Shown: positions 42,158-45,104 of the stretch, one piece after another
How the letters are laid out: the number at the start of each line of letters is the position of its first letter
Position numbering within the stretch: the stretch's first letter is position 1
Assembly: GCF_002706795.1 (NCBI RefSeq)
Contig: NZ_CP017705.1
Coordinates: 4,315,501-4,379,500, forward strand
Source of the DNA: Brevibacillus laterosporus DSM 25
Lineage (GTDB): Bacteria; Bacillota; Bacilli; Brevibacillales; Brevibacillaceae
Direction: 5' to 3'
DNA: 64,000 nt
Translations under genes and position numbers: made by a program
The notes under the pieces: model-generated
What the model was told of the DNA's origin: nothing
Databases searched by the model: none
The model's input: the letters and a program-made list of their open reading frames with translations, nothing else

Positions 42158-43594
42158 ATGAGAACGTATGAAGGTACTTTTCCAAAAGATTTTCTATGGG
42201 GCGGAGCGGTTGCAGCTAATCAATGCGAAGGTGCTTTTGGGGTTGGCGGAAAAGGAATTAGCCTTGCAGACGTTCACCGTTATCGTTGTGATCAAGATAT
42301 TACAAGTCATGATTCTGATATGACTCTTGCGCAAGTGAAAGAAGCAATTGAAGACAAAGTCGGTTATTATCCGAAAAGACATGGGATCGACTTTTATCAC
42401 ACATATAAAGAAGATTTACAGCTTCTTGCTGAAATGGGCTTTAAAACATTTCGAACATCTATTGATTGGTCTCGCATTTTTCCTAATGGTGATGACCAAG
42501 AGCCAAACGAAGAAGGACTTGCTTTCTACGATAAGTTAATTGATGAGATCAGAGGCCTTGGCATGGAGCCAATTATTACGATGCTTCACTATGAAACTCC
42601 GTTAAACATTACCCTTCAATATGGGGGATGGAATAATCGTAAAGTAATTGATTTTTTCGTTCGGTATGGAGAAGTATTGCTTGAACGTTACAAAGACAAA
42701 GTGAAATATTGGATTGTGATCAATCAAATCAATTTAATGTATCATGAATCCTTTAACTCGGTTGCGATCTGCAAAGACCAGGTGGAAAATGTAGACGAAG
42801 CTAAGTATCAAGCTATTCACAATCAAATGGTTGCATCGGCTCGAATTGTTAAAAAGGCGCGAGAATTGAGTTCTGCACTTCATATGGGCACAATGCTGGC
42901 TGATTGCACAGCCTATCCAGAGAGCTGCCATCCAGATGATATTGTACTGGCGCTGAAGAGAAATCGTCTACAGTATTACTTTACCGATGTTCAATTTAGA
43001 GGCGAATACCCTGGCTATATGAGACGTTTCTTTCATGAAAATGATATTTCAATAAATGAACTGCCAGAGGACGCCACTATTTTAAAAGCAAACACAATGG
43101 ACTTTCTGGCAATCTCATACTACTATTCTTCCATGGTTTCAGCAAAAAGGAATGGGATGAGCCCTGTTGATTTAAGTAAAAACCCGCATCTTAAAGCTAA
43201 TCCATGGGGCTGGGCTGTCGATCCTAAAGGCTTATATAACGCATTATGCCAATACTATGATCGCTATCAAGTGCCGATCATGATCGCTGAAAACGGTTTT
43301 GGTATGTATGACAAGCCAGAAGATGGGATGGTTCATGATGATTATCGTATATCGTATCTATCTGAGCATATCGCCCAAGTAAAGGAAGCTGTTAAAGACG
43401 GTGTGGAAATTTTCGCATATTGTGCTTGGGGACCGATTGATATCGTCAGCTGTTCTTCGGCTGAAATGGAAAAACGCTATGGTTTCATCTATGTTGATAT
43501 TGACAATGACGGGAATGGCTCGCGAAAACGTATTAAAAAAGACAGCTTTTACTGGTATAAAAAAGTAATTGAAACAAATGGAGAAACTATTTAA
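42158..43594 (+). CDS. GH1 6-phospho-beta-glucosidase homologue with Gln at the acid/base position
   Basis: 478 residues, full-length GH1 barrel starting [15 protein letters not shown]. The nucleophile Glu378 is in [11 protein letters not shown]. The phosphate-binding Ser, Lys and Tyr are in [16 protein letters not shown], so 6-phospho-sugars are expected. At the usual NEI/NEP acid/base site the protein reads INQIN: Gln190 (CAA at 42725-42727) replaces the catalytic Glu. Other pocket residues (His144, Asn189, the Tyr in ISYYYS, the Trp in WGPIDIVS) are kept. It could act on substrates with good leaving groups, as in plant myrosinases, or be impaired. It is the fourth gene of the PTS operon. 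Confidence 0.88.
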
Positions 43595-43667
43595 CGGAAT
43601 ATTCAAGCTAAAAAACCTGGTACATCAGCAAAATGAATGAACAGAGCCAATAAAGGAGGCAAGCAAC

Positions 43668-45104
43668 TTGAGAAAAAATCCGGATTTATTTCCTACAAAC
43701 TTTTTATGGGGAGGCGCGATTGCGGCAAACCAAGCAGAGGGTGCTTATTTGGAAGGCGGAAAAGGACTCTGTGTAGCAGATATCAATAAGTTTAATGATG
43801 AAGTGAGTATTAAGGAAAAAGGCAATTATGAATTGACAACAAAAGACATTCAGTTTGCTCTCGAAGATAAGGAAGGTCACTATCCAAAACGTACATCGAT
43901 TGATTTCTATCACCGTTATAAAGAAGATTTAAACATGCTTGCAGAAACGAAAATGAATTCGTTCCGTACTTCTATCAACTGGTCGCGTATTTTTCCGAAA
44001 GGCGATGAGACAGAGCCGAATGAAGAAGGGCTGAGATACTACGATAAGCTGATTGATGAGATTATTAAAAATGGAATGGAGCCACTTATTACGGTTTCCC
44101 ATTATGAAATGCCGTTGCATTTGGCAATCGAATATAATGGATGGTATAACCGGAAAACGATTGATTTCTTTGTTCACTACTGTGAAGTATTATTTAAACG
44201 ATATAAAGACAAAGTGAAATACTGGATTCTCGTAAACCAGATTAACTTAATTACGTTTGAATCTTTTAATCATCTAGGCATTCCAGCAGATCGTGTGGAA
44301 AACTTACTGGAAGCCAAATACCAAGGTGCACACAATGAGCTCGTTGCATGTGCGAGAGCAACAAAAATAGCGAAAGAAATCAATCCTAAGATGCAAATCG
44401 GAATGATGCTGTTTGATGCAATTTCACATCCTGCAACATGTAAGCCAGAAGATGTACTGGCAACAGTAAAACGCAACCAAATGGAGTACTATTTCTCTGA
44501 TATTCTCATGCGTGGTAAATATCCAAATTATGCGTTCCGCTTTTTTGAGGAGAACAATATTATGATTCATTTCGGAGAAAATGATGAGGAAGATTTCAAA
44601 AATACAGCCGATTTCTTTAGCTTCTCTTATTACTACACACGAATTTCTGATGCAGAAAGTGTAAAGAAGCCTAACTCTGCATATGTAAATCCGGAGCTGA
44701 AAGCAAGCGATTGGGGCTGGTCCATTGATCCGATCGGTTTAAGAACTGCTTTAAATTTGTACTATGATCGTTACCAAAAACCAATCATGATTACTGAAAA
44801 CGGTATTGGAGCGTATGACAAGGTCGATGAAAATGGCGAAATTCATGACCCGTACCGCATTGAATTCCTTAAACGCCACATTGAACAAATAAAAGAAGCA
44901 ATTAAAGATGGTGTGGAAGTAATCGGCTACTATCCGTGGGGACCAATTGATATTGTCAGCTGCTCATCATCCGAGATGTCTAAACGCTACGGCTTCATCT
45001 ACGTTGAAAAAGACGATTATGGAAAAGGAACGCTTGAAAGAAAGAGAAAAGACAGCTTTTATTGGTATCAGAAGGTTGTCCAGTCGAACGGAGAAGAGTT
45101 GTAA
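43668..45104 (+). CDS. GH1 6-phospho-beta-glucosidase homologue, second copy, also with Gln at the acid/base position
   Basis: 478 residues, a clear paralogue of the preceding gene. It begins [20 protein letters not shown]. The nucleophile Glu377 lies in [11 protein letters not shown], and the 6-phosphate site [17 protein letters not shown] is kept. The acid/base position again reads VNQIN: Gln191, here encoded CAG (44238-44240). The codon differs from the first copy, so the substitution is not a shared sequencing error. Start is TTG 43668 with AAAGGAGGC upstream. Two enzymes may serve different aglycones or linkages brought in by the same PTS. Confidence 0.88.

Follow-up and report, generated by a model that had tools for sequence, protein, structure and literature searches.

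The acid/base catalyst of a GH1 glycosidase is a Glu in the motif NEIN, and a locus in Brevibacillus laterosporus DSM 25 raises the question of what such an enzyme does when that residue is a Gln. The locus lies in a 64,000-nucleotide stretch of contig NZ_CP017705.1 (positions 4,315,501 to 4,379,500; hereafter the window) and comprises a phosphotransferase system (PTS) operon with two tandem GH1 genes, GHa and GHb. We find that both proteins carry Gln at the acid/base column, that this Gln arose once, and that both are under strong purifying selection. By a modest preponderance, sequence comparison favors GHa and GHb being members of an active, dedicated PTS-coupled 6-phospho-beta-glycosidase clade that would work without the canonical acid/base, relying on an activated aglycone and/or a loop carboxylate. 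The two genes and the codons at issue are as follows (window positions; Q+7 denotes the seventh residue after the Gln).

42158..43594, forward strand: GHa, GH1 6-phospho-beta-glycosidase-like protein; Q190 at the acid/base column, E197 at Q+7, nucleophile E378
42725..42727, forward strand: CAA codon of GHa Q190 (acid/base column)
42746..42748, forward strand: GAA codon of GHa E197 (loop acid, Q+7)
43289..43291, forward strand: GAA codon of GHa nucleophile E378 (ENG motif)
43668..45104, forward strand: GHb, GH1 paralogue of GHa; Q191 at the acid/base column, E198 at Q+7, nucleophile E377
44238..44240, forward strand: CAG codon of GHb Q191 (acid/base column)
44259..44261, forward strand: GAA codon of GHb E198 (loop acid, Q+7)
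44796..44798, forward strand: GAA codon of GHb nucleophile E377 (ENG motif)

GHa and GHb are 478 amino acids (aa) each and share 56% identity; GHb starts at a TTG codon preceded by AAGGAGG. Both belong to GH1 by PF00232 (399.2 and 411.2 bits, respectively, against a cut-off of 22.6, over residues 6-475). The cut-off of the NCBIfam 6-phospho-beta-glucosidase subfamily (623 bits) was not reached, the best scores being 528.1 bits for GHa and 563.9 for GHb, and GHa was under the cut-off of all eight NCBIfam models that it matched. The genome (5.4 Mb, one contig) encodes four GH1 genes, of which the two besides GHa and GHb read TFNEIN and TFNET.

The motifs of GHa (VINQIN) and GHb (LVNQIN) align without gaps to TFNEIN of the solved enzymes 6WGD (B. 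licheniformis), 2XHY (E. coli BglA), and 3PN8 (S. mutans) and to TFNEVN of S. pneumoniae 4IPL, placing Q190 and Q191 where solved 6-phospho-beta-glucosidases have Glu. An alignment of 140 GH1 proteins (140 of 141 sequences, 430-560 aa in length) identified the same column, at which E. coli BglA, AscB, and BglB all read FNEIN, and comparison with myrosinase agreed; neither GHa nor GHb has a Glu there. The nucleophile is present as the Glu of ENG in both. The columns Q22, H145, N190, Y322, E377, W424, S431, K439, and Y441 (GHb numbering) are invariant across a 44-row alignment of Q and E kinds, and we take them to form the pocket, with S431, K439, and Y441 as the Ser, Lys, and Tyr that bind the 6-phosphate. 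Further clade-specific columns adjoin active-site motifs (188/189, where TF is replaced by V/L/I, 323, 376, and 422), and some of the strongest (e.g., 335, 273, and 40) lie away from them. These results bear out much of the sequence-only reading, which had noted NQIN for NEIN in both paralogues, the codons CAA at 42725 and CAG at 44238, an intact nucleophile, 6-phosphate site, and remaining pocket, and the same Glu-to-Gln change in plant myrosinases, seen as Q187 in the solved 1MYR.

Relatives were taken as the best 80 of 587 found with six peptide patterns of GHb, such that Q elsewhere in GH1 is possible. The acid/base column of the 140 aligned proteins reads Q in 46 rows, which include near-identical copies (e.g., L067 and L130), and E in 94. 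Among the GH1 genes of 80 named-genome loci plus locus L002 (21 Q, 86 E), the best identity to GHa or GHb is at least 54.9% for each Q gene and at most 54.0% for each E gene. Phylogenetic reconstruction from a thinned set of 38 Q and 36 E rows, with the motif columns removed, placed all Q rows on one side of one branch (Shimodaira-Hasegawa-like approximate likelihood ratio test, SH-aLRT, 96). In a second tree, built without one long-branch E row, the Q clade received bootstrap/SH-aLRT support of 97/87; of 200 bootstrap trees, 98% contained it. Gln at the acid/base column thus arose once, and no clade member sampled has regained Glu. Two independent gains, one in GHa and one in GHb, are ruled out because the Q rows all fall in a single clade with a single change; the two proteins fall in two old sub-branches of it. 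Hosts of the clade include Bacillaceae, Listeria, Enterococcus, Companilactobacillus, Erysipelotrichaceae, Clostridia, a spirochaete bin, and an Enterobacter plasmid.

Ratios of nonsynonymous to synonymous substitution (Ka/Ks) relative to two genomes of the same genus (G132 and G073) were 0.064-0.076, GHa and GHb alike, and relative to G249 the ratio was 0.061 for GHa and saturated for GHb. Both genes are under strong purifying selection. Among 43 distinct Q sequences, 23 encode the Gln with CAA and 20 with CAG. The sequence-only reading had taken the differing codons of GHa and GHb as a sign of selection rather than of a copied error; both points stand, with Ka/Ks values of 0.061-0.076 and codon turnover, while any notion of separate gains falls, as both genes inherited Gln from one origin. 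Sequencing error or decay in a single strain is ruled out by the retention of Q in relatives, by codon turnover, and by Ka/Ks.

Glu-to-Gln at this column is a laboratory change used to trap or stop GH1 enzymes. Titles of PDB entries include Gan1D E170Q ("a catalytic mutant", also with cellobiose-6-phosphate), BglA E166Q, and CaBGL E163Q with glucose, all of which presumably fall at the acid/base column. Because engineered Glu-to-Gln GH1 enzymes are on record and the one with cellobiose-6-phosphate is titled a catalytic mutant, hydrolysis of cellobiose-6-phosphate by the classical route appears unlikely for GHa and GHb. A clade that keeps Gln under strong selection, in several phyla and mostly with its own importer lineage, would require either a substrate whose cleavage takes no acid or other chemistry, and Q-clade enzymes probably act on an unusual substrate or via an altered mechanism.

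The importer is encoded immediately before the two enzymes, and the placement of EIIB, EIIC, and EIIA directly upstream of GHa and GHb agrees with their assignment to one PTS operon in the sequence-only reading.

37335..39236, reverse strand: HTH-Mga-PRD-EIIA regulator, divergent from the PTS and GH1 genes
39317..39334, forward strand: palindrome copy 1, GTTCCTA-N4-TAGGAAC, between the regulator and the YczE-like gene; probable operator
39364..40023, forward strand: YczE-like membrane protein (NF052291, 84.7 bits, under its cut-off of 205)
40092..40109, forward strand: palindrome copy 2, about 100 bases ahead of EIIB, with a T run after it
40193..40507, forward strand: EIIB, lactose/cellobiose family (PF02302); probable start at the ATG of MTRVLL, the listed open reading frame (ORF) running from 40115
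40509..41759, forward strand: EIIC, lactose/cellobiose family (PF02378); probable start right after the EIIB stop, the listed ORF running from 40455
41802..42155, forward strand: EIIA, lactose/cellobiose family (PF02255)

Relatives of these genes recur across 32 clade loci (EIIC in 29, EIIB in 26, EIIA in 25, and the PRD regulator in 23). This comparison covers 32 of 34 loci, which are not independent; L014 and L021 were dropped because the NQ gene was missed by the gene caller or the motif pattern. The usual gene order is IIB-IIC-IIA-GH1, with IIB-IIA-IIC in some Companilactobacillus and the regulator on either side. An HPr-like protein (GIHARPA or a similar motif) is encoded in or near the operon at L008, L009, L015, L016, and L162.

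An EIIC within 1.5 kb with an NQ gene as its nearest GH1 was found at 30 of 38 clade loci, where a GH1 was accepted only with W...N[E/Q], ENG, and KRYG. Of these 30 EIICs, 28 form one group with 39.8-97.7% identity to that of the window. The EIICs of L020, L021, and L026 (34-41%) have an E-type GH1 as nearest neighbor in an operon that also holds a Q gene, and they fall inside the main group. In these three operons, the Q-type GH1 stands beside a distant E-type GH1 reading NEQSIIV. Only two of 60 loci with E-type genes alone (L029 and L060) have any EIIC match within 1.5 kb, both remote (24-27% identity). Because EIICs near NQ genes are mostly of one group and E-only loci are nearly devoid of EIIC matches within that distance, we conclude that importer and Q enzyme mostly travel together.

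The frequent PRD regulator brings to mind a role for these proteins as catalytically weak binders or sensors that would signal to it; klotho, which has lost a catalytic residue, offers a parallel. A sensor of this kind would not obviously need an invariant nucleophile, phosphate pocket, and set of -1 residues, nor two tandem copies kept under strong selection, and we regard this explanation as barely credible.

The loop that carries the Gln differs at a second position. Q+7 (E197 of GHa, E198 of GHb) is acidic in 41 of the 46 Q rows (E 40, D 1, V 4, G 1) and in four of the 94 E rows (E 4, D 0); the G row, L012, has a Glu one place further on. In the thinned set minus three distant E rows, position 198 alone combines an acid in 80% or more of the Q rows (34 of 38) with one in fewer than 35% of the E rows (3 of 33). 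The acid is already present in two deep Q branches, L163 (D) and L156 (E). The L163 gene (7186-8676) is itself a deep-branching member, reading FNQLN and in tandem with a GHb-type gene.

Taken with the operon, these features suggest how GHa and GHb might work. The dedicated lactose/cellobiose-type PTS would import and 6-phosphorylate a beta-glucoside, a -1 pocket of the ordinary kind would hold the 6-phosphosugar, and C1 would be attacked by the conserved Glu nucleophile. As Gln190/191 can neither donate nor accept a proton, the aglycone would be expected to leave more readily than a sugar, and E197/E198 might partly replace the missing role through aglycone recognition, proton relay, or water activation. 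Enzyme activity is itself presumed in this scheme. An activated aryl or other non-sulfated aglycone would be a candidate.

Several observations weigh against this scheme. The EIICs of L013 and L165 are of another type (27-28% identity to the EIIC of the window), and the Q enzyme of L018 (7977-9422) has no recognized adjacent PTS gene and sits between diaminopimelate dehydrogenase and hydrogenase genes. A Lachnospiraceae/Erysipelotrichaceae branch (L019, L020, L021, and L026) keeps Q with Val at Q+7. The gain of the acid is one evolutionary event, and a test on independent pairs had one pair and no power; since Q arose once, its association with the loop acid is one linked change and not a statistical correlation. 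Lastly, direct protonation by E198 may be out of reach, because the residue at the same position of myrosinase, Arg194, is presumably a ligand of the aglycone sulfate.

The Val branch and the single origin count likewise against an alternative in which the acid/base has relocated and E197/E198 would serve as general acid/base from a different angle, hydrolyzing ordinary O-beta-glucoside 6-phosphates. Speaking for it, the loop acid is the only acid gained protein-wide in the clade and lies seven residues from the lost one in the same loop, and GH116 offers a precedent in a retaining beta-glucosidase whose acid lies about 8 A from the nucleophile and protonates perpendicularly (PMC10167657). On the residue patterns, we consider such a relocation possible and on the doubtful side, and the same holds for its fixation together with a PTS lineage for one substrate.

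In the absence of a base, the glycosyl-enzyme might also be attacked by the hydroxyl of a sugar or by phosphate, which as an anion requires no deprotonation; GHa and GHb would then be transglycosylases or phosphorylases. Loss of the acid/base with retention of the nucleophile fits an anionic or activated acceptor on general grounds, and tandem, non-identical paralogues could split roles. However, we recognized no conserved gene that might serve as a partner for such a product, and a HAD-type protein is encoded at only 3 of 32 loci; we judge this route improbable.

The sequence-only reading had proposed a thioglucoside such as a plant glucosinolate, cleaved as the 6-phosphate in the manner of myrosinase. 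Beyond the shared Glu-to-Gln, the residue preceding the Asn is aliphatic in myrosinases too (TINQ), and hosts include an Enterobacter from strawberry and Companilactobacillus, which we presume to be plant-linked. However, solved 1MYR reads NQLYSVPTR with Arg194 at Q+7 (Q187+7), opposite in charge to the Glu of GHa and GHb and to the acid in 41 of 46 clade members, and inspection by eye of the 19 neighbor clusters common to at least three loci recognized no gene for sulfate, isothiocyanate, or nitrile metabolism. PTS-plus-GH1 routes for sinigrin do exist (PMC8660893), the proven one for sinigrin-6-phosphate being CfPttS/CfPbgS, which uses a different type of PTS. Nor is Gln known to be needed for such substrates. 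Bacterial GH1 6-phospho-thioglucosidases are already known: in Lactiplantibacillus plantarum, 8 of 11 GH1 6-phospho-beta-glucosidases have 6-phospho-beta-thioglucosidase activity, and Lp_3525, the sole one of the 11 for which the accessible part of the report gives the residue, has Glu-181 as acid/base (PMC10360150). 6-Phospho-beta-glucosidases are also implicated in glucosinolate use by E. coli (PMC8660893), whose BglA, AscB, and BglB have Glu. Because of the opposite loop charge and these known enzymes, the glucosinolate proposal is not supported; such a substrate is unlikely, and a myrosinase-like 6-phospho-beta-thioglucosidase highly improbable.

Regulation of the operon may involve the palindrome GTTCCTA-N4-TAGGAAC, whose two exact matches in the window lie 775 bases apart (0.18 expected), with none else at up to two mismatches. 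Its arms occur in 4 of 27 other clade loci (two each in L160 and L161, one each in L162 and L163). By genome, these four loci are those of G132 and G073, where the two copies are separated by 774 bases, and of G249 and G328, the single copy of G328 lying between the regulator and EIIB. The palindrome is probably the operator of the PRD regulator, its placement linking the YczE-like gene to the PTS operon; a YczE-like gene occurs in 7 of 32 clade loci, four of them being the window and near relatives. The T run after copy 2 would be compatible with a possible attenuation or terminator-like role. A scan of the window for catabolite-responsive elements gave 59 matches against 54 expected, one exact match (40152) lying upstream of EIIB; a promoter scan of the window gave 15 against 19.8 expected, and Rfam had no matches in 39000-45400.

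In an even sample of the class of the window, the coding pattern YWxxxNQ[I/V/M]N matched 19 of 398 genomes, with a GH1 behind the match in six: three of the genus of the window, G249, G328, and G208. Four of 391 Clostridia genomes matched the DNA pattern, with none of the four places encoding a GH1; motifs preceded by, for example, KKW or HW escape the DNA patterns, and named Clostridium and Lachnospiraceae members do exist despite this null result. Tandem GH1 pairs with Q in both occur in G000, G073, and G132 (genus of the window), G249, G328 (NQLN and NQIN), and Longicatena L012. Among the matches listed for 36 Companilactobacillus genomes, at least eight genomes have a full-length member, at least one of these (G429) having a second, divergent Q member, and at least one genome each has an in-frame stop or a shortened copy; 30 matches were made into loci, so that more divergent Q members may be missed. 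Of the copies at L138 and L139 (G422 and G436), one is interrupted by an in-frame stop and the other is shortened; some Companilactobacillus species may be losing the system. L175, an Enterobacter ludwigii plasmid typed as conjugative, carries a Q-type GH1, an EIIC, and a carbohydrate porin, and is the sole gammaproteobacterial member among those sampled.

The operon of Listeria monocytogenes L178 lies between a succinate-semialdehyde dehydrogenase gene and a Vga-type ABC-F gene, directly upstream of the latter. We take its order (IIB, IIC, IIA, beta-glucosidase, PRD-EIIA) to be that of lmo0914-lmo0918. This numbering is consistent with the available parts of PMC7889195, PMC2679221, and PMC3179493, among which lmo0915 is raised in mouse spleen and lmo0917 in soil extract. 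lmo0915 is termed L. monocytogenes-specific in PMC2679221 and is marked as present in several non-pathogenic Listeria in a table of PMC3019230.

The Q clade offers a route to a missing PTS substrate, and Q191, E198, 188/189, 323, and 422 form a short list of residues for direct tests. Were the acid/base indeed relocated to the loop, nature would have re-engineered the retaining glycosidase site that has been studied most. Among the open-access papers listed, none was seen to describe a bacterial GH1 6-phospho-beta-glucosidase with a naturally occurring Gln as its acid/base residue, itself a weak negative, and three annotated records name the Q-type protein only "glycoside hydrolase family 1 protein".

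Among known systems, the solved GH1 6-phospho-beta-glucosidases (6WGD of B. licheniformis, 3PN8/4F79 of S. mutans, 8YSV of E. faecalis, 4IPL or BglA-2 of S. pneumoniae, and 2XHY or BglA of E. coli) differ from GHa and GHb, which have Gln for the acid/base Glu, V/L/I pairs for the TF before the motif, and an acid at Q+7, and which score below the cut-offs of all matched NCBIfam models. The operon resembles those of the licRBCAH type, in which a PRD regulator stands beside separate EIIB, EIIC, and EIIA and LicH is a GH4 enzyme; unlike these, the window has a GH1 with Gln in the place of LicH. Plant myrosinases act on unphosphorylated glucosinolates. GHa and GHb share with them (1MYR, 1E4M, and 7Z1I) the GH1 family, the Gln, and an aliphatic residue at -2, and differ in the Glu at Q+7 for Arg194 and in the loss of the myrosinase Thr at -3. 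As in the sinigrin pathway of Companilactobacillus farciminis, PTS import would be followed by a GH1 6-phospho-beta-glucosidase, whereas CfPttS is a fused IIBCA beta-glucoside PTS and the window has separate EIIB, EIIC, and EIIA of the lactose/cellobiose type (PMC8660893).

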